A stretch of 29,627 nt of DNA from a virus, in the IMG/VR virus record IMGVR_UViG_3300025131_004451, positions 1 to 29,627 of that record; one strand, given 5' to 3'. The position numbers were made by a program, and so were the translations under genes. A model generated the notes under the pieces. It saw nothing but the letters and a program-made list of their open reading frames with translations. It searched no databases and was not told the DNA's origin. Below are positions 2,197-28,587 of the stretch, one piece after another (positions within the stretch are counted from its first letter, which is position 1; the number at the start of each line of letters is the position of its first letter).

Positions 2197-2410
2197 TACC
2201 ACTAACACCTACATTTTTGGCGGTTTTTGGCGCTTTCTTTTTAATCGCTTTTTTCATGGCTTTAGATTGCGTTTTTACTTCTTCATACAAAGGCGCCAAG
2301 CCCGCGCATTTAAGAACGCCAGGAAGGTCTATTACTTCCCCGGGAACCACTCTCCGTAAAACTCCTAAATCCACGTACACATCTATAGTCTGAGTATTTT
2401 TAAATTTCAT
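2189..2410 (-). CDS. Small phage protein, unknown (73 aa)
   Basis: I do not recognise this protein. The first half looks like a small beta domain (KNTQTIDVYVDLGV, then a VPGEVIDLPG turn). The second half is Lys/Ala-rich and strongly basic (KKAIKKKAPKTAKN) before a short SGTI end. Short proteins with an N-terminal 'IxVxV...PGExIDLP' pattern are common among hypothetical phage genes near structural genes. Its ATG lies 11 bases inside the end of the GDP-mannose dehydratase gene, so the two are probably translated from one message. Function is unknown. Confidence 0.6.
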   Translation of the reverse strand: MKFKNTQTIDVYVDLGVLRRVVPGEVIDLPGVLKCAGLAPLYEEVKTQSKAMKKAIKKKAPKTAKNVGVSGTI

Positions 2411-4681: not shown

Positions 4682-4685
4682 ATCG

Positions 4686-4693
4686 TATTATAG
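4686..4693 (-). promoter_or_regulatory. CTATAATA start-proximal box for C-methyltransferase
   Basis: An exact CTATAATA on the minus strand ends four bases before ATG 4681. It includes the stop codon of the upstream FkbM gene (4688-4690). No TTGACA-like -35 lies 16-18 bases upstream, which argues against an ordinary sigma-70 promoter and fits a T4-late-type promoter. Confidence 0.6.
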
Positions 4694-5380: not shown

Positions 5381-6158
5381 TTCTTTTTCTCCATTCTTTT
5401 TGCATACGCTTAAAGACGTTGATTTCGTCTTCTCCTACATCCTGCATCCATGCCTGTGGACCTGTATTTTTAGATTGTTCCCAACACGAAATAATGACAT
5501 CATTGAATCCTCCCCTACGTGCCGCATCTAAGTTAGGATAAATACAGGCTTCGTGTGCGAGTCCTGGAGTAAGTAATGTGCGCCCTTCCGTAGGATGAGA
5601 GTTAGCGGTAGTTTCAAAAGCATGTGGGGTTCGAGCTCCTCTACTTTCCGCCAACTTCAAATATTTAAGAAGATGCGTACGTGTCCACACACAAGGTAGT
5701 AGAGAGGTAGTTACGAGGGCATGAGGGGCGTTAGAAGCGAGGTACCAATTACCTTCTAACAAAGACTCGGCTCGGTCCATGTAATCAGGCTGTAGATATA
5801 ACTTATCACCTTTGCCCTCTTCGAGAAGTTTCAATCCTTCTAATAGCCTCAGACGATGTGCCTCTAACAAAGGTTTAATAGGGTAATGGTCCTCAAAACA
5901 CATTAAAAAATAATCGTCAGGGCATCTTTCAAAAAATTCGATTAGGGGCTCACACCACCCACGTCCGTCATCTTGGTCACCCATAGAATGAAACGAGAAA
6001 TTTTCTTGCAATTCTATATCAGGTTTATCAAAACCTAGAACTACGCTCTGCACCTCAGATGCCCAGTTTTTTCTAAACAACTCCATGTAACCTTCTAATA
6101 AAAAGCTATACTTGTTGGAAGTTATTACATAATTTTTTAGTTTACCTAAATAACTCAT
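5370..6158 (-). CDS. Putative glycosyltransferase-like protein
   Basis: This 262-residue protein has features of a GT-A-like transferase but no classical DxD. NYVITSNKYSFLLEG at the N-terminus resembles the first strand and helix of phage and bacterial sugar-transfer proteins. The acidic segment DDYFLMCFEDHYPIK at 81-95 occupies the place where a metal/nucleotide-sugar motif is expected (E89-D90-H91). A hydrophobic LLPCVWTRTHLLKYL segment and late HEACIYPNLD fit a sugar-acceptor half. GGGGAAG before ATG 6158 supports the start. The gene sits between two other sugar genes with overlaps of 4 and 11 bases. A divergent glycosyltransferase is the best guess. Confidence 0.55.
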   Translation of the reverse strand: MSYLGKLKNYVITSNKYSFLLEGYMELFRKNWASEVQSVVLGFDKPDIELQENFSFHSMGDQDDGRGWCEPLIEFFERCPDDYFLMCFEDHYPIKPLLEAHRLRLLEGLKLLEEGKGDKLYLQPDYMDRAESLLEGNWYLASNAPHALVTTSLLPCVWTRTHLLKYLKLAESRGARTPHAFETTANSHPTEGRTLLTPGLAHEACIYPNLDAARRGGFNDVIISCWEQSKNTGPQAWMQDVGEDEINVFKRMQKEWRKRNDL

Positions 6159-6460
6159 TTGTCTTCCCCACTATAAAATTTATTTTTTCCGGTCCCCAAC
6201 AAATCATCAGCTGTTAATTCAAAAGTAGTATTTTTGGAAGCGGCTTTGTCCACTAATACACGCAATCCAGCATTAATTTGGTCTATTAAATTATTACGTT
6301 CTCTATTTGTTCCACTTACTTTAGCCAAAAATTCTTTCATTCTATCCTCGGGAATATCGGCTATATCATTGTGCCAATCCCGTCGCTGGTCTTCAAGGTT
6401 CCATAACCTAATATTAGCTATGGTAAGTTTATCCATAAGGTCTCCTATTGTGTCTGCCAT
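6155..6460 (-). CDS. DUF4254-like helical protein
   Basis: This is a 101-residue mostly helical protein. Its N-terminal pattern (TIGDLMDKLTIANIRLWNLE) resembles DUF4254 proteins, which occur beside glycosyltransferases in bacterial polysaccharide loci. DUF4254 proteins are usually longer, so this would be a short version. The rest is charged with a central helix pair and ends in a disordered GTGKNKFYSGEDK tail. ATG 6460 is used because the family pattern begins just after it. An internal ATG at 6436 has the better Shine-Dalgarno (GGAG six bases before). It overlaps its upstream neighbour by 16 bases and its downstream neighbour by 4. A helper of a glycosyltransferase is plausible; no catalytic residues are apparent. 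Confidence 0.55.
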   Translation of the reverse strand: MADTIGDLMDKLTIANIRLWNLEDQRRDWHNDIADIPEDRMKEFLAKVSGTNRERNNLIDQINAGLRVLVDKAASKNTTFELTADDLLGTGKNKFYSGEDK

Positions 6461-7341
6461 AGTTCTATAATTCGTTTAGCTTGTGCTACAGTAGTTTGGT
6501 GTTGAGCCACATGGTCGTATAACCCTTGGCAGTAGGTTCCGTAAAGTTCCTCCGTCATGGAATTATGTTGAACGAGGTGGTAAACCTCTCCAATCATCTT
6601 TTTGGGATAGTCCGTCATCGTATAAGGGGGGCAGTCGTCTATATCGGGGAAAAAGGGCACACATTTGTTAGCCATAATCTCCAAGTGTCTCATACAGTCC
6701 CACCCACCTTTCTTGTGCGTGATGCCATAAAGACTTTTCTCATAATCACTATAATACTCTTTCTCTGACTTAAAGGTGTAAGTTTCTAGTTTTCCAGGTA
6801 TAATCTGCGCCAACTCTTTTTCTTTTTTGGCTGTCCGGTCCGGAGGAACTAATTTTTCCTCAGGGATAGAGAAACTAATCGGGTGTAACATACTATGAGG
6901 TTCTTCTACAAGCTCTCTTTTAAAATACATATGTTTTCTATATTGTTCGAGTAGCTCATCTAAATCATGCCCATCAATAATAACAATCTCATTATCTTTG
7001 TAGTGCTGACATACTTCCTCGTAGTGCCTCGTTGAGCGGTACATACGTGAAAAAATAACACAGTCGTAAACTTTATTTTTTAAGTTTTCTTTTAGGTCGG
7101 CTTCCTCTATAACATTACGAAGCCCCGGCTCTAAGTTCCCACAAAGAGTAAACCCTTTCCCGTGGAAATTATTTGCAAACTCCGGAGGGATATCCGTGTA
7201 CATATGAAACTGGTCATACAATGTATGCACATCTTTACCTAGTAACGACTTAAGACCATGGTACACACAATCTCCCATGTAATCCACCGTTCTACTTACT
7301 GGAGCAATAGAAGGGTCCCATCCAAAAAATAAAATTTTCAT
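6445..7341 (-). CDS. GT-B-like glycosyltransferase, divergent
   Basis: This 298-residue protein begins with a beta-strand start typical of GT-B enzymes (MKILFFGWDPSIAP). It ends with a segment in which YGITHKKGGWDCMRHLEIMA is followed by CVPFF. This resembles the nucleotide-binding helix region of GT-B enzymes, where a conserved Arg or Glu precedes an 'A.G.P' turn. A DGHD motif lies near residue 125. The start at 7341 has AAGGAT five bases upstream and forms a TAATG junction with the gene before it. A role in transferring a sugar to a cell-surface or phage glycan is inferred from this and the surrounding cassette. Confidence 0.6.
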   Translation of the reverse strand: MKILFFGWDPSIAPVSRTVDYMGDCVYHGLKSLLGKDVHTLYDQFHMYTDIPPEFANNFHGKGFTLCGNLEPGLRNVIEEADLKENLKNKVYDCVIFSRMYRSTRHYEEVCQHYKDNEIVIIDGHDLDELLEQYRKHMYFKRELVEEPHSMLHPISFSIPEEKLVPPDRTAKKEKELAQIIPGKLETYTFKSEKEYYSDYEKSLYGITHKKGGWDCMRHLEIMANKCVPFFPDIDDCPPYTMTDYPKKMIGEVYHLVQHNSMTEELYGTYCQGLYDHVAQHQTTVAQAKRIIELWQTQ

Positions 7342-7895
7342 TAGTATCCTTGTTTATTCTCTAAGTGGTTTGTGTTTCCATCACCTCTGTACCAGTGATA
7401 GACATATAAGTGGTTCATTAAACCTAGTTTAATATTAGACTCTCTACATCGGATATGTAGCTGTCCATCTACACCTAGCATTCCTTCGGGGGCACCACCC
7501 AATTCCTTCCACACCGATTTCTTCACAATCATTACAACTCCAGACATATAAGGGGCATCCGTTACGTCAGCTACGCTGGCTAGCATATTGGGGCTCACTT
7601 GGGAAACCTCTCTACCTATACTCCGGTGGTAGCGCATATCATGGTTCTCTTCATCTACACCACCCATTTTTTGCCACGCACTTCCAATCCGATTGGTTCG
7701 ACAGGTAAAGAAGCCGTACTCTGGATTCTCGTCTATTGTTTTTTCAATAGTACTCATCCAGTCAGGAGTAGTGAACATGGCGTCGTGGTCAAGAAACACC
7801 GCCCAATCGTCATCCTCTAATAAATTCATGAATTTATTGTAAGCACCTCCTAGATTCTTTTCCAAATCGTAGGGTATTAGAGTGTAGATGTTCAT
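7341..7895 (-). CDS. Short GT-A glycosyltransferase (GT2-like)
   Basis: This 184-residue protein has a metal-binding DHD motif (D36-H37-D38) in WAVFLDHDAMF. It also has an acceptor-side segment with a glycine-rich GVDGQLHIRCRES at about 140-152, followed by HLYVYHWYRG. It is shorter than typical GT2 enzymes (250 or more). It lacks most of the N-terminal nucleotide-binding strand region before DxD, but the remaining domain is coherent and has no frame disruption. ATG 7895 overlaps the upstream stop as ATGA. It is probably a compact phage glycosyltransferase. An enzyme remnant cannot be excluded. Confidence 0.75.
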   Translation of the reverse strand: MNIYTLIPYDLEKNLGGAYNKFMNLLEDDDWAVFLDHDAMFTTPDWMSTIEKTIDENPEYGFFTCRTNRIGSAWQKMGGVDEENHDMRYHRSIGREVSQVSPNMLASVADVTDAPYMSGVVMIVKKSVWKELGGAPEGMLGVDGQLHIRCRESNIKLGLMNHLYVYHWYRGDGNTNHLENKQGY

Positions 7896-8608
7896 TTTAA
7901 ATCGGTAATTGCCTCCAGCAACTTTGAATCCAATTCTTTGCGTAATAGTTCGGCGTTAAAAACAACGCAGTGCCCTCCAATTTTTCCGTCAGGGGGAGTT
8001 AGGGTAGGACGTATTACATGGTCCATCCATAAATCACGGTACCCATCGTTATAAGTTTCGTTGTAGTGGGTTTGTGCTTCCTCAAAATCAACTCCGTGTT
8101 CATCACAAAGTTTTTTGGCATAGTCATGCCACGCAATACACACCCCATAATAAGAGGTGTCTAGTAACTTTGCTATTTCAGTTGCTTTGGCGCTTTCATA
8201 AACTTTACACTCAACACCTAAATCATGCTCGAAGTGGGTAGCGGCAGTATGTGCGCAGGGACCCCCAAATATCTTTACAAAAATTTTAATTCCTTTGTCT
8301 AGTTCGGGATGAATGCCTCTGATGGGGGAATGTGCTACGTTCGGGTGGGAACATGCAATTTTGTCGATGGTCCCCGGTGGTACGGTTGAATGAATGATAG
8401 TTATTCCAGGCTTTAATGTATCAATATACTCAGTCACCTGGGCTACAAAATCATAGCTGTAAGGAATACAGATGTTCAAAACGTCAACCCCACCTAAATT
8501 ATCATCCCGGTCTAGATCTTTAATCAGCGGGTAAAATTTATTCTCAACATAGACTTTATCTAAGCCTTGTCCAATTTCTCCGTATCCAATAATTCCTATA
8601 GTTTTCAT
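7892..8608 (-). CDS. UDP-sugar dehydrogenase-like NAD-binding protein, truncated
   Basis: This 238-residue protein resembles the first two domains of UDP-glucose/GDP-mannose dehydrogenases. The Rossmann motif GIIGYGEIG is at residues 5-13, HSTVPPGT at 73-80, the EIAKLLD lysine region around 144-150, and GGHC with the catalytic Cys at 214. Family members are about 430 residues and carry a C-terminal UDP-binding domain that is absent here, so the substrate may differ. ATG 8608 is chosen over an earlier in-frame ATG (8629) because it forms an ATGA overlap with the upstream gene and starts directly at the Rossmann strand. It probably oxidises or otherwise handles a sugar nucleotide or related acid in this cassette. 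Confidence 0.75.
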   Translation of the reverse strand: MKTIGIIGYGEIGQGLDKVYVENKFYPLIKDLDRDDNLGGVDVLNICIPYSYDFVAQVTEYIDTLKPGITIIHSTVPPGTIDKIACSHPNVAHSPIRGIHPELDKGIKIFVKIFGGPCAHTAATHFEHDLGVECKVYESAKATEIAKLLDTSYYGVCIAWHDYAKKLCDEHGVDFEEAQTHYNETYNDGYRDLWMDHVIRPTLTPPDGKIGGHCVVFNAELLRKELDSKLLEAITDLK

Positions 8609-9408
8609 AGCTCTAATAATTCTTTCCAAGCATCGAAGATTTTGTCTTCATCCCATAATTCAAATTCGGTTGTAGCGTTTTTATTACCATGGTACTTAAT
8701 ACCAGCACGAATACACTCCGCACGAACTCGACCAAAGGCTTCTGGGAGTTCGTCAGAATTAGATTGATAAACACAAGAGATAGAGTCGTAGATTTTTTGT
8801 CTATCCAGCTCCATGCCCATGTATATCACGTTCTGATTATAGTTTAACACTGGTTGTATAGCATCATTAAAGTACTTTTCATCTAAACTATTACCGTAAA
8901 TTAATACTTTTCTGCAACCGTCATCAAGAGCCCTCTTAACAGATACATGAGTCTGCTTTAAAGGACACACAGTACCGATGACCCCAGCTATCCCCTCAGG
9001 ATGATTACCTGAGTCCTTAACTCCTCTGATGGTGTTGGGGATCACGATACCTTCCTTACCCTGCCACTTCATCTGGTCATCACTGATAAACCTAATCTTA
9101 TCGAATCCAGCAGTCTGTTCCTCTAGCTGTTGTAGAGGGAAGATAGCTTTTTCATGACAGCTTAAAATAATCTTTTTGGGTAGAGGATGTCTTTCATTCA
9201 AATGAATAAAATGACCTATAATAATATCCCCCTCTTCCATTTTAAAATTGTGGATGAGATCCCCTTTACATTTGTCCAAGTGCCAGGGGTGCGGACCATA
9301 AAAGGTGCATGCGTGACCTCGTTCATTAAGTAAATCACAAAGCTCCATTAAAGAAAAGGTTGAGCCACCTTCTTTTGACCAACCACTAATTATTTTTATT
9401 TTATTCAT
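8605..9408 (-). CDS. GT-B glycosyltransferase (GT4-like)
   Basis: This is a 267-residue glycosyltransferase-like protein. The N-terminus KIKIISGWSKEGGSTFSL has the glycine-rich acceptor-loop pattern of GT4 enzymes. A linker with VIPNTI leads into a second Rossmann domain (GVIGTVCPLKQTHVSVKRAL). The C-terminal helix region is SDELPEAFGRVRAECIRAG, with the E7E-like spacing used to hold the nucleotide-sugar ribose. ATG 9408 is preferred to the upstream in-frame ATG at 9471 because GGAGAGAG lies just before it. It overlaps the previous gene by 8 bases. Donor and acceptor are unknown. Confidence 0.75.
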   Translation of the reverse strand: MNKIKIISGWSKEGGSTFSLMELCDLLNERGHACTFYGPHPWHLDKCKGDLIHNFKMEEGDIIIGHFIHLNERHPLPKKIILSCHEKAIFPLQQLEEQTAGFDKIRFISDDQMKWQGKEGIVIPNTIRGVKDSGNHPEGIAGVIGTVCPLKQTHVSVKRALDDGCRKVLIYGNSLDEKYFNDAIQPVLNYNQNVIYMGMELDRQKIYDSISCVYQSNSDELPEAFGRVRAECIRAGIKYHGNKNATTEFELWDEDKIFDAWKELLEL

Positions 9409-10186
9409 GTTCTCTCTCCAAGAATTGCCAAATATCCACATCATAGCACTCATTGTCTTGAAGAAAAACATCTTCTAGTTTTCTTCCTACGCCGGTAGTA
9501 TATCTGAATTTGGGGTCACGGGAAGGGACATCAGCCCTACCACGTGTTAATTTAATTTCATACTCCTCTTTAGACTTTACCCAGTAGTGGTTAACGCGAA
9601 ACAGTTCAGCGGTTGCTGGCTCGTTAAAGGGTCCCGGACACGGTTTCTTATGTTCGTTAACTGCTCCGCCTTGTGCGTACAGAAAGGAATGAGGGTTACC
9701 TGCGGGACAGAGAGTGAACTGGGGTTGTACTATAGACTTTACATGTTTATTCACCATTTCCCCACGGCGTGTATAGTTAAGAAGAACTCCCCCAGAGGGT
9801 CGTTTTTGGTGACCGTTAGACCCAAAGAATACTTCATTAACAGCAATACCTGCGTACTGCTCAAAATCTTTCAATCGAGTTTTGAGCACTCCGTTAGGGG
9901 CAAACAAAAACTCATCCAAATCAATAAATGCCATCCACTTAGACTGGTCCCTATACGCTGTAAGAGCATTATAGTAACAAGCCATCTGACACATGTCCAT
10001 CGTGTTGTAGGAGTAGGTAACCTCTCCAGACTGTATGTAAGGCAGAAGAAGCTCCTTAGTGTAGTCCGTACTCCCGTTATCATAAAGATAGAAGTGTTCT
10101 ACCCCAACTCTTTTGTGAAATTTCAGCCACTCTTCTAGGTTAGGGGCTTCATCCTTAATTATAGCTACAACGCTTAAGTAATTCAT
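9401..10186 (-). CDS. GT2/GT92-type glycosyltransferase
   Basis: This 261-residue enzyme has the complete GT-A pattern. It shows the N-terminal strand and KDEAPNLEEWLKFH, then HFYLYDNGSTD (D36) for the nucleotide, then the metal motif IDLDEF (D89-L-D91). The later NHYWVKSKEEYEIK segment is typical of the glycosyltransferase 2-like/GT92 group found in bacteria and phages. Length and motif spacing are normal. It overlaps its upstream neighbour by 4 bases. The sugar added is not predictable. Confidence 0.85.
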   Translation of the reverse strand: MNYLSVVAIIKDEAPNLEEWLKFHKRVGVEHFYLYDNGSTDYTKELLLPYIQSGEVTYSYNTMDMCQMACYYNALTAYRDQSKWMAFIDLDEFLFAPNGVLKTRLKDFEQYAGIAVNEVFFGSNGHQKRPSGGVLLNYTRRGEMVNKHVKSIVQPQFTLCPAGNPHSFLYAQGGAVNEHKKPCPGPFNEPATAELFRVNHYWVKSKEEYEIKLTRGRADVPSRDPKFRYTTGVGRKLEDVFLQDNECYDVDIWQFLEREHE

Positions 10187-11448
10187 TTGCTCAAAGGATT
10201 TTCTAATGTTACTTCCGAGGGATGGTCAGGTACCTTAAGGGGAGATGCTTCATAACCTTTCGCCGCTTTTAAAGCATCTTCCTTCATATTCATAAGCTCT
10301 CGGTATAGGTCTAGCCTACCCCCAATAACTTTGTTGATGTCATATAAATCATCACATAAAAGTTTCAAATTTCTACCCATCTCTTCCACGTGCTTAGGGT
10401 CTTTAATGCATTTAGTTAAGATCCTGTTCCACTCAGACTTGGAGTTTTTAGGGTCAATCAAATACCCTGTCTCACCATTAACAATAAGTTCGTCATAACA
10501 ACCAACATTAGTAGCAATAAGAGGGACACCGTATCGAGCACCTTCAATGGCTTTAATCTCTGATTTGGATTGGTTGAAGGGGTTATCGTCTAGGACTGCT
10601 AAGTTAATATCGATGTTGGTGTACATAGCACCATATTGATTAGGTGCCATGGCAGGATAGACACGATAATTCCTATGTCCTTTGAATCCCGTTTTAAAAA
10701 CTCGTTCATAACCATCCCAAACATCCTGTTGCCAATCAGGTTCAGGTCGTCCTGTTTTTTCATTAACAGGCATTTCAGGTCTACCATAGAATCCCCAATG
10801 TACTCTTTCCTTCCCTACCTTCTGATTAACGAGGTAGGGGATACCGGCGAAATGTTTTACGTCTACGTCATGGTGTATGCCACCTACCCAACCCATACGG
10901 GTTAGTTTCTTTGGTTTAGGTTGTTTGGCAAGGTTCCAATGAGGTAACGCGTAATCAATAGTATTCTTGATTACTACGAGGGCTCCCCTAACAAATTCTT
11001 GGATATACTCAGCGAATTTACGTTGCGTTACCGTAACTAAATCTACATTATTATAAATGTACTTAGTTACTTCATCTAACTGCTGTTCCTTATAAACCTT
11101 AAAGAGTCGGTGTCCTCCATACAAATCAGTCAGGAGGTCATCAGTATCAAAGTGAGTAAACTTCCCAAATTCATGTGCCTTCTGTAAAATATTTGCGGTG
11201 TACATTCCACCAAAATTATGAATATTCTGCGTAAACACAACATCCGCCCACTTTATGTTTTCGTACTCGAAGTCAGGCGGAGTCTGGCTTTTCTCCTCTG
11301 CATTCCAGTTTAATGGGTTATCATCCCAACGAATTTCTACATCGTCAGGATAAAGCTCCGCCAACTTCTCCATAGGAAGGAGGATGCGATAGTAAGCGCA
11401 TCCTCCATGGTTACTTGGGCAAGCTAAAATCTTTAGCTTATCAGACAT
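10183..11448 (-). CDS. Glycosyltransferase family 1/4-type protein
   Basis: This 421-residue GT-B glycosyltransferase opens the sugar cassette. The N-terminal domain begins ILACPSNHGGCAYYRI and includes HFDTDDLL near residue 140. The C-terminal nucleotide-sugar domain contains SKSEIKAIEGARYGVPLIAT, followed by NGETGYLI, the family hallmark with the ribose-binding Glu. Length is typical. A Shine-Dalgarno AAGGTGGA precedes ATG 11448. It starts three bases after the gp32-like gene, so the sugar genes probably share a message with replication genes. Confidence 0.88.
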   Translation of the reverse strand: MSDKLKILACPSNHGGCAYYRILLPMEKLAELYPDDVEIRWDDNPLNWNAEEKSQTPPDFEYENIKWADVVFTQNIHNFGGMYTANILQKAHEFGKFTHFDTDDLLTDLYGGHRLFKVYKEQQLDEVTKYIYNNVDLVTVTQRKFAEYIQEFVRGALVVIKNTIDYALPHWNLAKQPKPKKLTRMGWVGGIHHDVDVKHFAGIPYLVNQKVGKERVHWGFYGRPEMPVNEKTGRPEPDWQQDVWDGYERVFKTGFKGHRNYRVYPAMAPNQYGAMYTNIDINLAVLDDNPFNQSKSEIKAIEGARYGVPLIATNVGCYDELIVNGETGYLIDPKNSKSEWNRILTKCIKDPKHVEEMGRNLKLLCDDLYDINKVIGGRLDLYRELMNMKEDALKAAKGYEASPLKVPDHPSEVTLENPLSK

Positions 11449-11451
11449 ACG

Positions 11452-12219
11452 TTAATCCACCTTAAGGTCTTTTAAATGTGCCATGTAATCATCACTATCT
11501 GGCGCTTTGGTTTGGGAAGCGAGAATATCGGGATGAGTTCCTTTGGCATCAGCCTCCAATTCCAACATCATACCCTTAAGCTCATCATAGTCAGCGACCT
11601 TAATAAGACCGTGAATATCATGAAGTTCATCCATATAAATTGCGTTTTCAGCATCACTTCCAGCAGTACTTGATTTTGGTTTTGGCGAAGACTTATCATA
11701 GTTTGGCCACTGTCCCTGTGTATCTTTAACAATCTTGAAATCCCAACCTTCTTTTAGGTCAGTAATATCCCCAAAATCTTCGTCAAAGAAACAGTCGAGA
11801 ACCTTCCCGAAAAGCTTTTGTCCTACTGACAGAATCTTAACCGTATTATCCCTACGATCTACCACGTTCATGTAGTACCGCTTACGCGACTTGATTTGAC
11901 GTGCAAGGTCTTGAAGCTCTTTTCCTTTAGGAGTCTCTTTACCGATAGCGTTAATTTCTTTCCACATGTTATAATAAGTATCACATACAGGACACTTACC
12001 ATCTTTCACACGTGGGCAGTGATAATTCTTGTCATTAAGACGATGAATTGCAGTTTCAGCGTAAAATTCTTGGTTTGCTTCATCCTTTGCAGGAAGAACA
12101 CGCACCACAGATGTACCTTCGTCCATCATGAAGAATTTGCTCAGGAAATCGGAGTTGCCTCCACCGCCGGAATTATTAATCTCGGCATATTTTTTTCTTA
12201 GTTGTTCGATGTTAACCAT
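11452..12219 (-). CDS. 32: gp32-like single-stranded DNA-binding protein
   Basis: This is a 255-residue homologue of T4 gp32, the cooperative ssDNA-binding protein of the replisome. The basic N-terminal LRKKYAEI plus glycine linker corresponds to the cooperativity arm. The core has VVRVLPAKDE and a zinc-binding set with candidate ligands H59, C68, C76 and C79 (HCPR...CPVC). An OB-fold-like segment follows (RYYMNVVDRRDN), and the C-terminal part is acidic (ALELEADAK-like, then DSDDYMAHLKD), as in gp32, where the tail contacts partner proteins. It is somewhat shorter than T4 gp32 (301). It is adjacent to a UvsY-like protein and helicase. Confidence 0.88.
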   Translation of the reverse strand: MVNIEQLRKKYAEINNSGGGGNSDFLSKFFMMDEGTSVVRVLPAKDEANQEFYAETAIHRLNDKNYHCPRVKDGKCPVCDTYYNMWKEINAIGKETPKGKELQDLARQIKSRKRYYMNVVDRRDNTVKILSVGQKLFGKVLDCFFDEDFGDITDLKEGWDFKIVKDTQGQWPNYDKSSPKPKSSTAGSDAENAIYMDELHDIHGLIKVADYDELKGMMLELEADAKGTHPDILASQTKAPDSDDYMAHLKDLKVD

Positions 12220-19531: not shown

Positions 19532-20537
19532 CTTTAATCTCGGTTAGCCCCTTCAGCAATTCTTTCTTATCAAAAATAGTATCGCTGGCATTGATATACT
19601 CGTCTATCACTTTCTCGTCTAGGCTGAAGATACGGTTCTTAGGGATATACCCAGACTCAAACTTAGGGAGTACGTCTTCAAACACGAGCTCTAGGCTTTG
19701 GATAGGGTACTCAGCGAATATCTCGTCTCTCAACCTCTGCTCTGTATAGGAGTCTAGTTTATCCATCTTCACTCTCAGAATAGTGAAGAAGTCTTCGAAC
19801 TTGTGTATCTTGGCAAGCGCAGGAATCTCATCAATGGTTCCTACGATATGCTTGATACCTTTACCTATAGGCTTTTTAATAAGCTCTATTTCTTGGTCTC
19901 GGATTACTAACTCGTGCACAAATTTCTGTGCGTTTGCTTCCCCAAATGTATTAGAGTAAGCTGTGCCAAGTATTACGACGTTGTCATAAATTTTAGGTTT
20001 GTGGATGTGCCCCAAAAAAGCGAAAGGTTTCCCTCTAAAGTGCCATTTCTTTACACGAGCTTCGTATGCGTAGTGCCCGTTCGATACGCACTCATCAAAC
20101 CCGAAATGACCGAAGACTGGGTTCTTATTCTTTTTTAAATCGGCAATGATTTTATCCTCGTCCTCATAGTGGGGAATAAAATCAAAGTTCACATCTCCGA
20201 TACGAATGGTTTCAGTATCCTTTACGATGCGGGCTTTCTCCGAAAACAGAGAAAGAATAGTGTCCGAGGTTCCATCCTTGCGCAAGGTATCATGATTGCC
20301 TCGGTTAACGATAATATTTTTACATTTAATATTGTCCAGAAGGTATCCAAAAGCTAAGAGTTCTTCGCTTCGGGGGTTACGGCGCTCAAACACATCTCCG
20401 TTAATCACAACGTGAGAACAGGGCTTGTGGTTGGTCAAGTGGAGAAGTGTCTCTACTTGCCTGTCTAAAAATCCTGGAAAATAGTCGGCACGAAGATGTA
20501 AATCGGTAAGAATGACGACTTTACTGGTCTTTAACAT
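19518..20537 (-). CDS. 47: gp47-like Mre11/SbcD nuclease
   Basis: This 339-residue metallophosphoesterase is the nuclease subunit partner of gp46. The motifs are complete: TDLHLR (D12, H14), GDVF (D48), GNHD (N81, H82, D83), FGHFGFDE (H144) and GHIHKP (H177, H179). The C-terminal third is the capping and Rad50-contact region. Length matches T4 gp47 (339). It overlaps the polymerase gene by 17 bases and gp46 by 14, so all three are probably co-translated. Confidence 0.95.
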   Translation of the reverse strand: MLKTSKVVILTDLHLRADYFPGFLDRQVETLLHLTNHKPCSHVVINGDVFERRNPRSEELLAFGYLLDNIKCKNIIVNRGNHDTLRKDGTSDTILSLFSEKARIVKDTETIRIGDVNFDFIPHYEDEDKIIADLKKNKNPVFGHFGFDECVSNGHYAYEARVKKWHFRGKPFAFLGHIHKPKIYDNVVILGTAYSNTFGEANAQKFVHELVIRDQEIELIKKPIGKGIKHIVGTIDEIPALAKIHKFEDFFTILRVKMDKLDSYTEQRLRDEIFAEYPIQSLELVFEDVLPKFESGYIPKNRIFSLDEKVIDEYINASDTIFDKKELLKGLTEIKDAVK

Positions 20538-22038
20538 AATCTAAAATTTCTGCTTCATTAAGCAGGTGTCCTCCATTATCGAACTCAGCATCAATCATAT
20601 CCCCAAAAGAACGACCTGCTTCAACGTCAACAGCGAAAGGCACGACAAAGTCCAAGGCATACAAATGTTTGAAGTCATCGGTGCTTTCTAACACAAAACG
20701 CATAAGCTCAACAGTTTTTTGTAAATCTTTCTTTGAGCACTGCACTTCAACAGAGTCATGGACCGTAGCAAGGATCTGGGCATCTAACCCCGTAGCTCCC
20801 AAGTATTTTTGTAAGCGAAGAATTGAGTGCAGCATTAAATCAGAGGCGGAGCTTTGAATAACAAAATTCATACCTTGTCGCAACGCACGGTATTGATATT
20901 TCCTATTAGGACTTGTTACATTAGATAGATGTCTCCGACGCCCAAAAATGCTTACCGCATACCCATTTTCCCTCACGAACTTATGCACAAAATTAATCCA
21001 CTTAAAAACTCTTGGGAAAGAATCCTGATAAGCTTTAAAAATATTTTTACAGTACCCTACCGACTTACCTATCTGTTCTGCCAATTTTTTCGGACCGCCT
21101 CCGTAAACGATAAGAAAACTAACGCTCTTCGCGATCTGCCTTTCTTGTTTAGTTACATCCTTAGCATCCTTCCCAAATACAAGAGATGCTGTAAAGCTAT
21201 GCAAATCCTGTCCAGAGTTGAATGCTTCAATTAAATTTTTGTCCTTACAGCACTGAGCGAGGACTCTCAATTCTGCTTGAGAGAAGTCGGCGGCAACGAA
21301 CACCTTATCTTTATCCGCAGTCATCATGCTACGAAGATTAATAGGGTCGTCTTCATCAGGACGGGGTAAAGTGTGGAAAGAAATACCTTTACGGTGTTTA
21401 GGTCCTACCGAATAGGTTGAGCAACTCAAACGACCCGTGACCACGTTACCAAAGTTATAACTAGAGTAAACTCGACCATCCTCATTGTAAGCGACAGCTT
21501 TCTCAACCCCCTTAACATAAGTCTTGTGTTGTTTTATACGACCCTTATACTTTAACAGAAGTTGGATATACTCTTTTGCGTTTCCAGTTGCCGTGATAGC
21601 GACCTTCTGAAGATGAGCCTCTGTGATGGAAGGTGCCTTTGTTTTCTTAGAGAAGTCTACGGCTTTTAACCCAAACCCTTCTTTACTAAAAAGCAATAAA
21701 CCCATATCGGCATTGGACTTCGGGTTAACATCGTCAATTACTGATAACTCAGAGAGTTTAGTTTCTAGTTCTTCGATCTCCTTGGCAAGGAGTGTATCAA
21801 AACGAGACACACAGTCAGTATCAACCAAGATACCCCTATGCTCTACATCAGAGGCAACGACAAGAATATGTTTAAGAAGTTTAGAATAAACGTGATTTAC
21901 CCCTTTCTTCTTCATTTCTTTGGTCATCTGTTGATGCGCACGGAGAGTAAAATCCGCGTCCATAGCGTTTCCCAACGCCATCTCATCCAGTGGCATGTTT
22001 GCCCAGTCATGGGTTCCCCCGTCAGTTACGGTTAGCAT
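20521..22038 (-). CDS. polA: Family A DNA polymerase, C-terminal half of a split enzyme
   Basis: This 505-residue protein carries the polymerase domain and the tail of the 3'-5' exonuclease domain. It opens with DWANMPLDEMALGNAMDADFTL, where D27 corresponds to the ExoIII aspartate of Klenow (D501) and Gly23 stands where the ExoIII tyrosine is normal. Motif A is DFSQAELRVL (D251, E256). Motif B is RQIAKSVSFLIVYG with R300, K304, F308 (the E. coli Phe762 position) and Y312. Motif C is VHDSVEV (D428). The ExoI and ExoII motifs and the N-terminal domain are encoded by the separate gene at 23477-24448. In-frame stops just upstream of ATG 22038 show the frame cannot extend. Together the two proteins give about 828 residues, like one full phage PolA. 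Confidence 0.95.
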   Translation of the reverse strand: MLTVTDGGTHDWANMPLDEMALGNAMDADFTLRAHQQMTKEMKKKGVNHVYSKLLKHILVVASDVEHRGILVDTDCVSRFDTLLAKEIEELETKLSELSVIDDVNPKSNADMGLLLFSKEGFGLKAVDFSKKTKAPSITEAHLQKVAITATGNAKEYIQLLLKYKGRIKQHKTYVKGVEKAVAYNEDGRVYSSYNFGNVVTGRLSCSTYSVGPKHRKGISFHTLPRPDEDDPINLRSMMTADKDKVFVAADFSQAELRVLAQCCKDKNLIEAFNSGQDLHSFTASLVFGKDAKDVTKQERQIAKSVSFLIVYGGGPKKLAEQIGKSVGYCKNIFKAYQDSFPRVFKWINFVHKFVRENGYAVSIFGRRRHLSNVTSPNRKYQYRALRQGMNFVIQSSASDLMLHSILRLQKYLGATGLDAQILATVHDSVEVQCSKKDLQKTVELMRFVLESTDDFKHLYALDFVVPFAVDVEAGRSFGDMIDAEFDNGGHLLNEAEILDYVKDQ

Positions 22039-22210
22039 CTTTTAATTCTTTTATTATGTGTCCTAGTTCAAAAATAATATTAACGTAATGGGTGTTACTC
22101 TTGTAATCTTGTTGGGTAACTTCCCCCGCTTTCATTATAGCATCTCGGTACTCATTTAGAGCACGAATTACCTCATCAAATAATGGAGGGGGAAGTCCAG
22201 GTTTTAACAT
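22022..22210 (-). CDS. Small helical protein, unknown (62 aa)
   Basis: I do not recognise this protein. It has an N-terminal GLPPPLFDEVIRALNEYRD helix and a second helix VNIIFELGHIIKELKDA, with no Cys and no catalytic motif. Its end overlaps the polymerase start by 17 bases, and its start overlaps the stop of the next upstream gene by one base. It is one of the three genes separating the two halves of PolA. A protein-protein contact role would fit its all-helical form, but nothing proves it. Confidence 0.6.
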   Translation of the reverse strand: MLKPGLPPPLFDEVIRALNEYRDAIMKAGEVTQQDYKSNTHYVNIIFELGHIIKELKDANRN

Positions 22211-22464
22211 TACTGTGAGACGTGTTTAATCCTAAGGAAGCACCACTGAATGTTGTTACAAAAATCATTATCATCTACGTACTCATCAAGATGAGTTCTA
22301 AGATTGTTTAGTATAAACTTTGCTTCGTACTCAGGTACGTCAAAATAACGAGCGACCTTCCGTAGATTAAAACACCCTCGCGGGGCTACTACGTCAGGGT
22401 CCCATTTAACAAGGTCCCCTAACGCAGTAAACTGTTGTTCCAAGTTGTTTCCCGGAGTGAACAT
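22210..22464 (-). CDS. Small protein with HTH-like segment, unknown (84 aa)
   Basis: I do not recognise this protein. The middle, RKVARYFDVPEYEAKFILNNLRTHL (residues 35-59), looks like a helix-turn-helix or winged-helix element, followed by an acidic DEYVDDNDF and a last strand IQWCFLRIKHV. Three Cys are present (31, 69, 75). The gene is coupled by one-base overlaps to glutamine synthetase upstream and to the 62-residue gene downstream, inside the PolA split. A small regulator is possible but speculative. Confidence 0.55.
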   Translation of the reverse strand: MFTPGNNLEQQFTALGDLVKWDPDVVAPRGCFNLRKVARYFDVPEYEAKFILNNLRTHLDEYVDDNDFCNNIQWCFLRIKHVSQ

Positions 22465-23477
22465 TAGGCTAAAGTTTCCAAAAGTTTAGCTGTTACAAGG
22501 TAAGGGTCACAAGTGGCGGCAGGACGGCGGTCTTCAAAGTAACCGTACCCCTGAGTTTGTACATGAGAGGGAATACGAACGCTGGCGCCCCGGTCTCCAA
22601 AACCCCATGTAAACTCATCATAGCTAGAAGTCTCACACTTGCCACTCAAGCGCAAATCATTTCCTGCGCCATATACGTTAATGTGCCCTAGATGAGTCTC
22701 CTCTAGTTTACCCATAATTCTTTCTATCTCCTTCAGACCCCCGTTCTTGCGCGTCTTTTCCGTCGATATGTTCACATGGCACCCCGCGCCATTTAGATTT
22801 GGGTAAATCTTTGGGTGATACGAAATTCTCATGTTAAACTTTTCACTTCCTTTTTGAAGAATATAACGAGCTACCCACAAATCATCAGAGACTTTAAGAG
22901 CATCCTCTGGATTAGTTTGGAATTCCCATTGAGAAATCATTACCTCAGCGTTAGTACCAAACAAAGTAATACCCGCTTTATGGCAGTTTTCTAGATGCTC
23001 CTCAGCAACTAAACGTCCGATAACATTACCTGCGCCCACACCACAGTAGAAATCTCCCTGCTTAATGTCTTCTGGTACAAGGGGTTGCATCATTGGATCT
23101 GTTAAAGTGTATTCTTGTTCGAAACCAAACAATACACCCAGGTTACCGTGTTTCGAACCGGCGCCAACTATCTCCTCCCCATCCCTTAACTGTTCAGCCA
23201 ATAAACTTCGCATGTTCGATTCATGGGGTGTACCGTCAGGGTTCATAACCTCACACAGTACCATGTAATTACCCTCACTAAAAGGGTTCTTATACAACCG
23301 AACAGGCTTAAGTTTTCGATCAGAATCTTTTAAGTCTCCTTGTCCAGTGCTACCTCCATCGAACGACCACTCAGGTAATTCAGATAAAGTGTGTTTCTTA
23401 GAAAAGACTCTCGTCTTTGAACGTAGTTGGGGCATGTCTACAGACCCATCTAACCATATGTATTCTACAGTAATCAT
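22464..23477 (-). CDS. glnII: Glutamine synthetase type II
   Basis: This 337-residue enzyme makes glutamine from glutamate, ammonia and ATP. It belongs to GSII (eukaryote-like): EWSFDGGSTGQG at the N-terminus, FGFEQEYTL with catalytic Glu in the middle, NAEVMISQWEFQ, GAGCHVNIST and the C-terminal GYFEDRRPAATCDPY. It is close to the usual 350-370 residues and seems intact. The canonical 'PGQWEFQ' reads 'ISQWEFQ'. GGAG lies before ATG 23477, which overlaps the exonuclease stop as TAATG. The location between the two parts of the DNA polymerase is very unusual. Glutamine feeds purine, CTP and amino-sugar synthesis, so it may support both DNA replication and the sugar cassette. Confidence 0.95.
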   Translation of the reverse strand: MITVEYIWLDGSVDMPQLRSKTRVFSKKHTLSELPEWSFDGGSTGQGDLKDSDRKLKPVRLYKNPFSEGNYMVLCEVMNPDGTPHESNMRSLLAEQLRDGEEIVGAGSKHGNLGVLFGFEQEYTLTDPMMQPLVPEDIKQGDFYCGVGAGNVIGRLVAEEHLENCHKAGITLFGTNAEVMISQWEFQTNPEDALKVSDDLWVARYILQKGSEKFNMRISYHPKIYPNLNGAGCHVNISTEKTRKNGGLKEIERIMGKLEETHLGHINVYGAGNDLRLSGKCETSSYDEFTWGFGDRGASVRIPSHVQTQGYGYFEDRRPAATCDPYLVTAKLLETLA

Positions 23478-24448
23478 TAAAATTTCTCCAATTCTTGAGG
23501 GAAGTACTCCTTCACTAAATCCATAAGACCGTGCGGGAGATTTTCGTCAAGTAGCGAGTGCATAATTTTTGTATCACCAATATTATTAAAGTCTTTAATT
23601 CCAAAACTCATCAAAAACTTTAGGTCAAATTGGCAATTATGAAAAATTTTCTCGATGCTTGAATCTGCCATTAAATCACCGAGCCTCTCTCTAATGATTT
23701 CTTTTTCTTTATCATCGAATGGACTTTCACGATGATGGATAGGGACGGTAAAGGCTTTATTCTCTCCGTACGAAAATGCAATAGTGGACATCTCATCCTT
23801 CTTAAAATCTAAGCCGGTGGTTTCGATGTCTGCTCCGACAGCATCATAATCTTTGAGTACATCCATCTGTTCGGTGAACTCCTCAATGGTTTTACATAAC
23901 ACATACCCGGTTCCATCAAACTTATTTTTATTTAAAATAAACTTATTGTAGGCGTTCTCAATATCCTGGACAAACAACTTTCGTAATTTCGGTTCCAGGA
24001 ATACTAAGTCCGCGCTATAGGTCGGTACTACCGGACACCCTTCGTACCCAAACTCCTTTCCGCGCTTATTAAACAAACCAGACTTCTTAAGTAATGTCTT
24101 CATAGCCACATTACCTAAAGGAATAATAAGCTCAGGCTTAATCTGGTCTAAGTCCTTATACAAAAAGGGTCTATGGGTGTTATAATCAGCAGTCGTTAGA
24201 TCGTCCTCTGAGATGTTGGGTTCCCGAATAGCAGGAACAAACTGATAGTGCCCTTTCGGTATCCCAGTCTTTTCTAACAGGGTGCTGACGACGGCATACT
24301 CGTGGTCAGTGAAGTCATATAGGCTTCCGCGCTCACGATATTGGCATGATGTAATAAAAACAATCTTCTCATCCCCAATGTCTGTGGAAGAATAGTCTTT
24401 TGTTTTTTCGTCTTTATCGAAATTTTCTAGTAATTTTTCTAAATCCAT
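23477..24448 (-). CDS. PolA N-terminal half: UDG-like plus 3'-5' exonuclease motifs
   Basis: This 323-residue protein is the upstream half of a split phage family A DNA polymerase. Residues 25-170 look like the uracil-DNA-glycosylase-like fold found at the N-terminus of some phage polymerases (IIPLGNVAMKTLL, then YEGCPVVPTYSA). Its canonical UDG catalytic residues are not evident, so it may be structural. Residues 180-323 hold the proofreading exonuclease with ExoI DIETTG (D207, E209) and ExoII FHNCQFDLKFL (N271, D275). It stops at KEYFPQELEKF, before ExoIII, which is in the gene ending at 20521. ATG 24448 has a TCATAATA box four bases upstream and no Shine-Dalgarno, so it starts the long replication unit. 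Confidence 0.88.
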   Translation of the reverse strand: MDLEKLLENFDKDEKTKDYSSTDIGDEKIVFITSCQYRERGSLYDFTDHEYAVVSTLLEKTGIPKGHYQFVPAIREPNISEDDLTTADYNTHRPFLYKDLDQIKPELIIPLGNVAMKTLLKKSGLFNKRGKEFGYEGCPVVPTYSADLVFLEPKLRKLFVQDIENAYNKFILNKNKFDGTGYVLCKTIEEFTEQMDVLKDYDAVGADIETTGLDFKKDEMSTIAFSYGENKAFTVPIHHRESPFDDKEKEIIRERLGDLMADSSIEKIFHNCQFDLKFLMSFGIKDFNNIGDTKIMHSLLDENLPHGLMDLVKEYFPQELEKF

Positions 24449-24463: not shown

Positions 24464-24826
24464 GTGGGAAAACGCAAAAAAAAGAAACACTATATTGATA
24501 ATAAGAAGTTTGAAGAAACCATCTTTAACTACTTGGAAAATCCAAAGGACTATGAAGATGATCTTATCGGACAACTAGACTTACTAATTACAAGCATTCT
24601 CATATCCTTTAAATTTAAAGTTGATTTTGACGATGCTAAACAAGAATGTTTTGTGCTGTCTTTGAAGGTACTTAAAAACTTTACCCGTGAAAAGGGGTCC
24701 GCTTTCAATTACTTCACTACTGTTATAGTGAATAACTTGAAACTTATTTACACTAAAAATAGGAAATACCAGGAAAAGATGCAGCAGTATAAAGACAAGA
24801 AGATTAAGGCTTTCTTGGAGGAGTAG
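24464..24826 (+). CDS. 55: gp55-like late-transcription sigma factor
   Basis: This 120-residue basic helical protein matches the sigma-region-2-like core of T4 gp55, which directs host RNA polymerase to late promoters. The order of features is the same: a Lys-rich N-terminus then HYIDNKKFEETIFNYLE, a helix with ISFKFKVDFDDAKQECFVLSLKVLKNF, then AFNYFTTVIVNNLKLIYTK and a basic tail RKYQEKMQQYKDKK. T4 gp55 is longer (185). This protein lacks its C-terminal extension, where gp55 contacts the sliding clamp. The start is GTG at 24464, with no in-frame ATG nearby, and a CTATTATG box lies four bases upstream. It is one of only two plus-strand genes here. The start choice is less certain than the protein identity. 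Confidence 0.72.
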   Translation: MGKRKKKKHYIDNKKFEETIFNYLENPKDYEDDLIGQLDLLITSILISFKFKVDFDDAKQECFVLSLKVLKNFTREKGSAFNYFTTVIVNNLKLIYTKNRKYQEKMQQYKDKKIKAFLEE

Positions 24827-25491: not shown

Positions 25492-26007
25492 ATGTTAAAA
25501 AATATCGACTCAATCTTAGAATTTGGGGATTTCTCCAAAAAACGTCGCGTCAACAGCAAGCGCAAGGGCAGTAACTTCGAACGTAAGATAGCGAAGATAC
25601 TTAACGGGCGATTTGAAACTAAAGAGTTCAGTAGAACCCCCGGGTCGGGAGCTTTTGCCACTACCCATAGGAACCTTCCAGAACATCTCCGTATTCAGGG
25701 AGACTTAATTACTCCAGTTACCTTCCCTTTTGTAGTTGAATGTAAAAATGGTTACGATGTACAACTTGATGATTTATTCAAACGAAAAAGCGATTTCAAG
25801 TCTTTCGTCTCACAGGCTCAGAAGGACGCCTCTCACGCCGACAAGGATTGGATGGTAATCTACCAGAAGACGCGACGAATGGCTCTTGTAATCGTCGGGA
25901 AGCCGTATCAGATTAAACCGGAGCTAGTTCTAGACGGTATCTACTTTATCTATCCTCTTAATGAGTTCCTGAAGCTGTCTAACGAAGTCTTCGGCTTTCA
26001 TAGCTGA
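25492..26007 (+). CDS. PD-(D/E)XK nuclease, Holliday-junction-resolvase-like
   Basis: This 171-residue protein has the core of archaeal/phage Hjc-type or VRR-like nucleases. The first acidic residue is in GSNFERKIAKIL (E30). RTPGSGAFA follows at 48-56, and then QGDLITP with D71 and FVVECKNG with E83-x-K85 form the PD-(D/E)XK site. A gene of this type can cut branched DNA before packaging, as T4 gp49 does, or trim recombination intermediates. It is on the plus strand. Its last 78 bases lie antisense to the end of the 885-residue protein gene, and both frames read as plausible protein. No Shine-Dalgarno is obvious before ATG 25492. Confidence 0.8.
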   Translation: MLKNIDSILEFGDFSKKRRVNSKRKGSNFERKIAKILNGRFETKEFSRTPGSGAFATTHRNLPEHLRIQGDLITPVTFPFVVECKNGYDVQLDDLFKRKSDFKSFVSQAQKDASHADKDWMVIYQKTRRMALVIVGKPYQIKPELVLDGIYFIYPLNEFLKLSNEVFGFHS

Positions 26008-28587
26008 GTTACCGACTTCCAGTCCCGGAGCGTTTCCCCCTCCGCCCTTACAACTCATATTTTCCTTGGTCTTCTTAGAGGGATAACGGACCTCTTGGAC
26101 CTTAGAGTTGTCTTTAACACGGCGCGTTAATTCCTGTCCAGTACTAAGTGTAGTAGAGGTTCCTGTTACCTTTATCTTCGCCTTAGGGGTACCCTCAGGG
26201 TTTCCGTACCCCAAGACATCCTCCATAATCTGCTTATTAATTGCGTCCGACTCCGTACTTATGCACGTATCCTTTCCAGGCTCAGTAATAACCAGTAATT
26301 GATTTTGAGAAGCTGAACCTGCTTGCATCATTTCTATAGCTAGATTTGTTCTAAACCCAGGGTCATTTCTATGCTGGTTACGGTAAGCCTGGGTTAAAGT
26401 AGTCTCGATTCGTTTTCTAGCCTTCTCCTTATCAACACTTCCCTCGGGGGCATTCTCATACTCCTCAATATGTTTTTGGAGTTTCCCAAATGCCTTACCG
26501 TCAGGATAGGCCAGTTTGTTGATCTCGCCTTTGAAGATACTGTGTATACTTGCTCCGTTTAGCCCTTCAATTGCAGCCATCGTATCATGGGAAAACTGAA
26601 TCTCCCCCAGCTTATAGTTGTCAGCCGCTTCCGCGTCCTTTTTGTCAAATTTTTGGCCAAGATTTTTCGCAACCGTCTCTATGTAATTCAAAGCACGATT
26701 TCTAGCCGCCCTAGTATCGGGAGAAAAGCCTACAATCTTCCCTGTCTTCGGCGGATCTGTTTCCACGCCGTCGACTACAGCACAGCTGATTTTACCCATT
26801 TGGATTAATTCACCTCCGAACGAAAATTTCAGGTTTACACCTGTGGCGTCAGGTCGATCGTAATGGTCTCGGTTTTTATCGTCATCGGTTCCGAAGCTTC
26901 CCTCTCCTGAGTTCACATTAAATTTACCGTGTTGTTCAAAGGCTTCCAGGTGGGTTTTCCCTTCTTCTTCAGGACAAGTTACTTCAACATCTTGGGTGAT
27001 TTTCGCACCTATATTTTTACCAGCTTTAACCTGTCCCGTAGGACCTCTTCCTACTACGTTAAAATCACAGCCCTTAAACTGTGGGTCCGATACCAAAGGG
27101 TTCCACGAGTTTATCATGGTGGCAGTAAACCAGGCTAAAGCTTTAGAACCATCAACCTCTTCGCCCAGCTCTTTTTCAATCTGGTCCAAAATAAGGTCTG
27201 TACCAATCTCATTAATAGTAGCGAATTGATAGTCCGGGATTCTCCCGGCGTTCCGTTCTTCGGCTCCCCATATCAGAAGATTTAAATCAAAATTTTCTTC
27301 AGCCATCATATTTTTGATTGCTTCCTGCAATCCAGGGCACCCACGTGACGGATCTTGTTTGTGCCCACATTCCATCCATGCCTTAGCAATTTTGGGACCA
27401 TGTTCAGCCATTACTCCCGCCATTCCACGGTATGCGTTTGCTTTAGCTGCGTTTGTGCCTCCCCAGAAAATAGCAGGTTTGGGCTTACCTGAAGTATCGA
27501 ATCCGTTTTCTCCATATAAAGGATCCTTCTTCTTCAAACTATCATCATGGATTTGGACCATCATCTTGTATAGAGGACCATCTTGGTTATTTATTTGTAC
27601 ACCATAATTGTGGCCTCCCTCTTGGTACTCTACTGCAGCAGCAGCTAAAGGACCTCCGCAATACTGCCCATTAACAGGATCTGGAACCATATAAATACCT
27701 TTCTTCTGTGAATCTCTTTGCCCTCGCAAACGAAAACAATCGCGGAGGAACTTACGGTCAGCTTCCGACAGCTTTTCGCCGAGGTCTAGTTTCCTTTTAA
27801 TAGCAACCAAATTCAGGACGGTCTTCTCTAAATGTTTAACATCCTCGGCACATTCCGCCGCGTTCTCCTGAGCCTTTTGTACTCCTTCTTCTTGGGTTAA
27901 AGTGGATTGTGTGTCCTTGAGCTCTTTTTCCGGTAAATACGTCACGTCGAGAGCTTCGTCAGACCTTGCTCTAGCCGCTCTTCGCAAAGCTCCACTCCTA
28001 CCACCTCCACAGAGCTGGCGCATCATAGTTCTCATTGCGTCGTTATCGGACTCGAAACCCACGGATGCTAAAGCGTCTGCTGCTCTTTGTCCTGCGTCGT
28101 CGGCAACTTTTTGAGCCTCTTCCTCTACTTGCTTTTTTAATTTTGCGGCGCTAATGGTCTCTTGGGCAGTACCTTTTTCGTCTTCAGCGGCTTTTCGGCT
28201 TAACTCAGCTTCTTCGGGATTTTTTTTGTATGCATCAACAATGAGCTTCCAATCGGAATATATAAACGTGAACGTGCCGTTCCTGGGAAGACTTCCTGCT
28301 GCACCCAAACCTGCTCCTTTCTCGGTTGGGGGTTTAAACTTGATCTGCATCGTCACCACGCCTTTATTTCTCGATTCAGAAGAGTATGGCGTCCCTGGAT
28401 TAGCTATCGATTTCTCTTGGGCCATCCCCGGGTCTCCTCCCCGTTGGTCTTCGGGGGGATCTAGACCTGATAAATTCGCAAAGATGGAGGTCCACCGATT
28501 TACATTCTCAGGGGTAACCTCTTGCGCTTCTAGCAATATATTGTTCCCAGCAGCTTGGTACGCGTCGATGAATTCAGATAGTTCCAT
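25930..28587 (-). CDS. Large protein, probable virion component (885 aa)
   Basis: I do not recognise this protein. It starts with a short helical part (MELSEFIDAYQAAGNN), then a beta segment GTFTFIYSDWKLIVDAY near 103-119. A long Ala/Glu/Lys-rich coiled-coil follows (about 120-180, then again around 230-270 in AQENAAECAEDVKHLEK). From there it is a mixed Gly/Asn-rich body with many Cys (including QLCGGGR, SRGCPGLQ, NMSCKGGGG) and ends in a helical tail DFVRQLQELIKRIDK. No signal or membrane segment is seen. It is immediately downstream of tail tube and sheath genes, so a virion role is likely: internal head protein, tape-measure-like or injected protein. ATG 28587 has a CTCTAATA box four bases upstream. 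Confidence 0.6.
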   Translation of the reverse strand: MELSEFIDAYQAAGNNILLEAQEVTPENVNRWTSIFANLSGLDPPEDQRGGDPGMAQEKSIANPGTPYSSESRNKGVVTMQIKFKPPTEKGAGLGAAGSLPRNGTFTFIYSDWKLIVDAYKKNPEEAELSRKAAEDEKGTAQETISAAKLKKQVEEEAQKVADDAGQRAADALASVGFESDNDAMRTMMRQLCGGGRSGALRRAARARSDEALDVTYLPEKELKDTQSTLTQEEGVQKAQENAAECAEDVKHLEKTVLNLVAIKRKLDLGEKLSEADRKFLRDCFRLRGQRDSQKKGIYMVPDPVNGQYCGGPLAAAAVEYQEGGHNYGVQINNQDGPLYKMMVQIHDDSLKKKDPLYGENGFDTSGKPKPAIFWGGTNAAKANAYRGMAGVMAEHGPKIAKAWMECGHKQDPSRGCPGLQEAIKNMMAEENFDLNLLIWGAEERNAGRIPDYQFATINEIGTDLILDQIEKELGEEVDGSKALAWFTATMINSWNPLVSDPQFKGCDFNVVGRGPTGQVKAGKNIGAKITQDVEVTCPEEEGKTHLEAFEQHGKFNVNSGEGSFGTDDDKNRDHYDRPDATGVNLKFSFGGELIQMGKISCAVVDGVETDPPKTGKIVGFSPDTRAARNRALNYIETVAKNLGQKFDKKDAEAADNYKLGEIQFSHDTMAAIEGLNGASIHSIFKGEINKLAYPDGKAFGKLQKHIEEYENAPEGSVDKEKARKRIETTLTQAYRNQHRNDPGFRTNLAIEMMQAGSASQNQLLVITEPGKDTCISTESDAINKQIMEDVLGYGNPEGTPKAKIKVTGTSTTLSTGQELTRRVKDNSKVQEVRYPSKKTKENMSCKGGGGNAPGLEVGNSAMKAEDFVRQLQELIKRIDKVDTV

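Follow-up and report, generated by a model that had tools for sequence, protein, structure and literature searches.

A family A DNA polymerase of a phage clade divided between two genes within its exonuclease domain, with a proofreading site probably completed in trans

Background

Family A DNA polymerases are the textbook single-chain proofreading polymerases. The window analysed here, the whole 29,627-nucleotide stretch of the IMG/VR virus record IMGVR_UViG_3300025131_004451, carries such a polymerase (PolA) in two genes of the minus strand, separated by a glutamine synthetase-like (GS) gene and two small open reading frames (ORFs). Does this locus encode one enzyme built from two chains, two enzymes that work independently, or the remains of a gene broken by insertion? 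We suggest that the product is probably a two-chain family A replicative polymerase of the UDG-exo-pol type (uracil-DNA glycosylase (UDG)-like, exonuclease and polymerase domains), permanently split in one phage clade, whose proofreading site would be completed in trans.

The divided locus

The halves are designated chain 1 (exo ORF) and chain 2 (pol ORF), and their features are listed in Table 1. In Pfam, the exo half matches DNA_pol_A_exo1 (5.5e-19) and the pol half DNA_pol_A (PF00476, 4.1e-82), and both match phrog_17 at successive profile positions (exo 555-785, pol 794-1244). These consecutive ranges and the alignment to E. coli Pol I agree with the proposal, made in an earlier note on this DNA, that one PolA is split in its exonuclease domain; the coordinates, residue numbers, lengths (323 + 505 = 828 amino acids) and three intervening ORFs (337, 84 and 62 amino acids) given there are all correct.

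The gene order along the minus strand is exo, GS, the 84-residue ORF (p84), the 62-residue ORF (p62) and pol. At the exo/GS, GS/p84 and p84/p62 joints the stop of one gene overlaps the ATG of the next (TAATG at all three), and the pol ATG sits 17 nucleotides within p62, with the previously claimed in-frame stop, a TAA, two codons upstream of it. Since neighbouring genes share a few bases at each joint, leaving no room for an intron, the exo-to-pol block reads, from its sequence, as a single compact operon.

Table 1. Positions and conservation of the features of the divided polymerase (window coordinates unless a relative's record is named; residue conservation from 33 split and 7 fused sequences aligned and numbered against E. 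coli Pol I)
Feature	Coordinates	Strand	Basis or conservation
Chain 1 (exo ORF), 323 amino acids; UDG-like domain ~10-174, exonuclease with ExoI and ExoII ~175-323	23477..24448	-	Pfam, PHROGs, structure match
GS gene, 337 amino acids, between the halves	22464..23477	-	family in 25/47 distinct loci
p84, small ORF of 84 amino acids, between the halves	22210..22464	-	family in 5 loci
p62, small ORF of 62 amino acids, between the halves	22022..22210	-	family in 15 loci; 17-nucleotide overlap with pol start
Chain 2 (pol ORF), 505 amino acids; ExoIII segment and whole polymerase domain	20521..22038	-	Pfam, PHROGs, structure match
ExoI Asp, exo D207 = E. coli D355	23828..23830	-	invariant 33/33 split, 7/7 fused
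ExoI Glu, exo E209 = E. coli E357	23822..23824	-	invariant 33/33 split, 7/7 fused
ExoII Asp, exo D275 = E. coli D424	23624..23626	-	invariant 33/33 split, 7/7 fused
Last residue of chain 1 (break point), F323 = E. coli F473	23480..23482	-	F 27, Y 5, L 1 of 33
ExoIII Tyr site, pol G23 (E. coli Y497)	21970..21972	-	G 33/33 split, Y 7/7 fused
ExoIII Asp, pol D27 = E. coli D501	21958..21960	-	invariant 33/33 split, 7/7 fused
Polymerase motif A Asp, pol D251 = E. coli D705	21286..21288	-	alignment to E. coli Pol I
Polymerase motif C Asp, pol D428 = E. coli D882	20755..20757	-	alignment to E. coli Pol I
Pol half divided a second time, at an ATGA stop/start overlap in the thumb	L021:6001-7586

Distribution and origin of the split

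Related loci (L002-L025 and L027-L163) come from scans of IMG/VR that took as queries the pol protein and an alignment for each half. After removal of duplicates, 47 distinct exo/pol pairs were retained, all from environmental viral contigs and 46-100% identical in exo and 55-100% in pol. All 47 are broken at the same residue, between the equivalents of E. coli F473 and E474, and none has its halves in one ORF. An identical break in 47 distinct pairs excludes chance and assembly error. Thus the search of related genomes that the earlier note had suggested returned the same split throughout, together with unsplit homologues (L026 and L094-L103, the closest found) that are only ~25-28% identical and all single-ORF. 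The split group forms one clade against the fused homologues in both trees, with support of 100/100 under a mixture model. The split is shared clade-wide and has one origin on the tree, which gives its age relative to the clade.

Among named phage genomes, the top tblastn matches are annotated as DNA polymerases at ~24-30% identity, and none reaches 60% identity; no relative was found in the genome collection scanned for a host. Apparent further breaks in L025 and L158 were rejected as sequence errors, sbcD and sbcC being broken likewise in both records, and a frame break within the exo half of L048 was put aside as a single case.

Position of the break and catalytic residues

The break falls directly after F473, an exonuclease active-site residue of E. 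coli Pol I. Chain 1 ends exactly 48 residues past the ExoII aspartate in 47/47 loci, and chain 2 starts 27 residues ahead of the ExoIII aspartate (30 or 31 in one subclade). Summed over both chains, the spacing between these aspartates is 75-79 residues (E. coli, 77; fused homologues, 69-86), so that no residues have been lost or gained and the two chains together make up one complete domain.

All four metal-binding carboxylates of the DEDDy family (PF01612) are kept: chain 1 has D207, E209 and D275, and chain 2 has D27. This upholds the earlier view of a putative composite proofreading site. The rule that DEDDy enzymes hold all their motifs within one polypeptide is broken in 47/47 loci. In addition, the tyrosine of the ExoIII motif (YxxxD), which in DEDDy exonucleases helps to position the reaction (Y497 in E. 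coli), is missing from every split sequence aligned. This clade-wide change to glycine accompanies the split, either as a possible compensation or as a possible weakening. The exact break point, this glycine and the second break described below go beyond the earlier note. Chain 2 carries polymerase motifs A, B and C, and its equivalents of D705, R754, K758, Y766, H881 and D882 are invariant (33/33 split, 7/7 fused).

Structure models of the single chains

AlphaFold2 models of each chain, predicted singly, were compared by Foldseek and superposition. The exo model has a mean pLDDT of 86.5, dropping to 73 and then 57 in the last blocks of chain 1, and the pol model one of 87.8 with its first six residues disordered. 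Klenow 324-472 is matched in superposition by residues 175-323 of chain 1 (Z 15.9 over 143 residues, 2.3 A) and Klenow 457-928 by chain 2 (Z ~34-37), the start of the latter range including the disordered N-terminus. The Pfam match of chain 1 to UDG is weak (1.9e-4, under the Pfam cut-off), and the first uracil glycosylase motif seems, by eye, to be absent; the model nevertheless confirms the UDG-like N-terminal fold that had been proposed, residues 10-174 matching family 4 UDG/UdgX with Z ~18. The top Foldseek match of chain 1 is the family A polymerase of phage phiLo (9qhs), with both domains aligned; in sequence and fold, chain 1 also resembles NrnC/RNase D-type exonucleases.

Selection and conservation at the break

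Both halves are under purifying selection: the ratio of nonsynonymous to synonymous substitution rates (dN/dS) is ~0.02-0.17 in the pairs that allowed an estimate, whether for exo, for pol or for its first 60 codons, synonymous sites being saturated or nearly so in several pairs. Conservation is concentrated on the two edges of the break. Mean entropy is 0.49 bits in the ExoIII segment of chain 2 (residues 16-33) versus 1.51 in residues 34-60, and 0.62 bits in the last 24 residues of chain 1 versus 1.26 for the exo domain. This pattern is expected if the two edges meet in one active site, and is unlike what a dead exonuclease, or a chain 1 working alone, would lead one to expect.

Genes between the halves

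The interval between the halves is as short as a stop/start overlap and as long as 3.7 kb. Its modules comprise GS (25 loci), the 62-residue family (15), the 84-residue family (5), ThyX (6), a PDDEXK_11 protein (6), a saccharopine dehydrogenase-like protein (3), DUF3310 and others. On a quick tree, at least nine changes of state are needed for GS, and 3 to 6 for the other modules. Five loci (L021, L049, L069, L148 and L086) are split without any insert, their halves abutting by a stop/start overlap or a 1-base gap, and no frame change restores one ORF in any of the five. As these loci remain split and GS has been gained and lost repeatedly, the insert is not what keeps the gene divided. No homing endonuclease was recognised between the halves.

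The gap (22022-23477 in the window, and its counterpart in relatives) is thus a recurrent cargo site, occupied by modules in changing combinations. A cargo-free ancestral state was considered because the quick tree placed L148 and L049 at the base; under the mixture model, L148 falls within the clade and its basal placement is rejected.

A second break in one subclade

Chain 2 is broken again in eight records (L019, L020, L021, L022, L023, L024, L054 and L058), where a piece of 157 amino acids ending in AG-stop overlaps, by ATGA, the start of a piece of ~370 amino acids; the contigs of L054 and L058 stop within or ahead of this third piece. The second break maps to the thumb, near E. coli residue 620, and has a single origin on the tree (support 100). 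PF00476 is found in two adjoining parts in the three-piece records, with no other copy. Two loci with one ORF across this position (L147 and L149) sit in another subclade, so that the three-piece state keeps its single origin.

Other polymerases in the relatives

The survey for other polymerases covered the 13 longest of the relatives' records, all fragments of at most 101,674 bases. They hold one PolA and one PF01612 domain, and neither PolB, PolIII alpha nor a separate DnaQ-type exonuclease was detected above the cut-off in them. No intact polA was found in these 13 longer relatives.

Interpretation of the split

In the reading that we propose, chain 1 contributes the UDG-like part and the bulk of the exonuclease domain, up to the active-site aromatic residue F473. 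Chain 2 opens with the stretch that precedes the ExoIII helix, where the D501 equivalent stands as fourth metal-binding carboxylate, and continues with thumb, palm and fingers. The two chains most likely bind non-covalently, the ExoIII helix of chain 2 docking into the truncated exonuclease fold and so completing the metal site. Proofreading would then be confined to the assembled enzyme, and chain 2 alone could polymerise without it. The genes may also be coupled in translation through their overlapping stop and start codons. The functional two-subunit enzyme, one of the two readings left open in the earlier note, is judged the likelier one, in view of the selection on both halves and of the lack of an intact copy in the records searched. 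A more extended model is, in our opinion, somewhat better than evenly balanced: an obligate multi-subunit family A replicase with assembly-controlled proofreading, in which the exo subunit stays inactive until pol gives the last metal ligand, which one subclade has extended to a three-subunit PolA and whose inter-gene gap takes up metabolic cargo genes time and again.

Several points weigh against a two-chain proofreading polymerase. Another polymerase may lie elsewhere in the genome, the records surveyed being fragments; a structural role could partly explain the conservation of D27; and, with Y497 replaced by glycine in all split members, the activity of the exonuclease may be changed or low. 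The last point, with the precedent of divPolA1, a phage PolA whose exonuclease has been inactivated by the loss of three aspartates (PMC11348598), would suit an assembled two-chain polymerase whose exonuclease domain is merely structural, proofreading being lost or marginal. We consider this unlikely, since the four metal ligands are invariant down to 46% exo identity, the ExoIII segment is strongly conserved amid variable flanks, dN/dS is low in both halves and the split clade has lost none of the aspartates missing from divPolA1. Still less probable is a pair of independent enzymes with no joint site, chain 1 being a free exonuclease or uracil-DNA-binding protein and chain 2 a free exo-minus polymerase. 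Proofreading-free polymerases do function alone in other systems, and chain 1 is like NrnC/RNase D-type exonucleases and folds singly with good confidence. However, it is devoid of the fourth carboxylate and the ExoIII helix, which such nucleases have in one chain, and its model loses confidence precisely at the end where a partner would pack, whereas chain 2 retains an ExoIII motif for which there is no polymerase reason. Neither half is a complete independent enzyme.

Introns and inteins are frequent in phage polymerase genes, and the abutting halves of the five insert-free loci might recall a gene whose product is restored to one chain by RNA splicing, a split intein or ribosomal frameshifting. 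Such a product is very improbable here: no Rfam intron was detected in the window or in five relatives, the interval is wholly coding with overlapping genes, and the size of the insert varies from none to 3.7 kb. Neither half carries extra residues, which leaves no room for an intein; no canonical slippery heptamer occurs at the abutting junctions inspected, and a frameshift cannot span 1.4 kb of other genes. The other reading of the earlier note, a recent disruption by the inserted GS and two small genes, tolerated or decaying, has the presence of these three genes in the window in its favour and is scarcely credible, given that the split is clade-wide with one origin, that the inserts come and go while five lineages are insert-free, and that both halves are under purifying selection. 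The two-chain polymerase with a site shared between its chains accordingly remains the reading that we retain.

Comparison with known systems

The domain order UDG-like, 3'-5' exonuclease, polymerase is that of the enzymes of SPO1-like and PaBG-like phages, the PaBG polymerase having been described as UDG-exo-pol (PMC7412058), and of phiLo 9qhs; SPO1-type Bacillus phages are among the tblastn matches of chain 1. These enzymes differ in being one polypeptide, against two or three chains here, in sharing ~25-30% identity, and in the glycine at Y497. With E. coli Pol I Klenow, the likeness lies in the complementary ranges fitted by both models and in the correspondence of every catalytic carboxylate; Klenow is, however, a single chain without a UDG-like domain.

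A split PolA has been reported in the OM43 phages MEP401 and MEP402 (PMC10580990). As here, a family A phage polymerase is distributed over two ORFs with a small gene between, a state common to a marine phage group, but the MEP401 break lies in the palm, just ahead of motif A (E. coli 699|700), and leaves the exonuclease site whole on one chain with Y497 kept. The T4-related Aeromonas phages 25 and 44RR likewise have their replicative polymerase in two chains, gp43A and gp43B, and a split of this type calls for halves contiguous in sequence with nothing lost, as is seen here. The gp43 proteins are of family B, and their split is tied to a seg homing endonuclease or to an untranslated insert. 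In phage 25 the two proteins co-purify and polymerise, and the split NrdA of Aeh1 is active (PMC2988022); by analogy, these precedents may be taken as support for a working two-chain enzyme. Split polymerases as such are therefore already known. In the open-access literature searched, most subscription papers lying outside it, we did not find a report of a PolA split in its exonuclease site or of a three-piece PolA, which are new as far as we found.

A long-lived natural split through the proofreading metal site offers a direct test of proofreading in trans and of its regulation by subunit ratio, and the halves are natural parts for a polymerase of switchable fidelity. The three-piece branch illustrates the degree of fragmentation that a replicase can undergo with its sequence still under selection. 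Annotation pipelines will label the fragments as truncated, and surveys of fidelity or of full-length PolA in virioplankton will miss or misread the split forms.

Other observations on the locus

Shine-Dalgarno-like cores are rare ahead of exo (1/47, for a background of 17%) and at background ahead of pol (9/46); this scarcity possibly points to a host in which such cores are not used. The GS of the window belongs to phrog_21628, a family of unknown function, and resembles, by eye, eukaryote-type GSII (LPEWSFDGGSTGQ).

Next to exo, on the opposite strand, lies a gene of 120 amino acids (24464-24826, +), which has a counterpart in the same position in L024 (4365-4766, -); it looks by eye like a small sigma-factor-like protein and has no PHROGs match. 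A gene of 885 amino acids (25930-28587, -) without Pfam or PHROG match is 24-45% identical in relatives whose exo, pol and sbcD are ~79-96% identical, and thus diverges far faster than its neighbours. Finally, sugar genes (GDP-mannose dehydratase, C-methyltransferase and two glycosyltransferases) stand amid replication genes (gp32-like, DnaB and UvsX/RecA) at 2400-12219 (-), which suggests glycan decoration by the phage.

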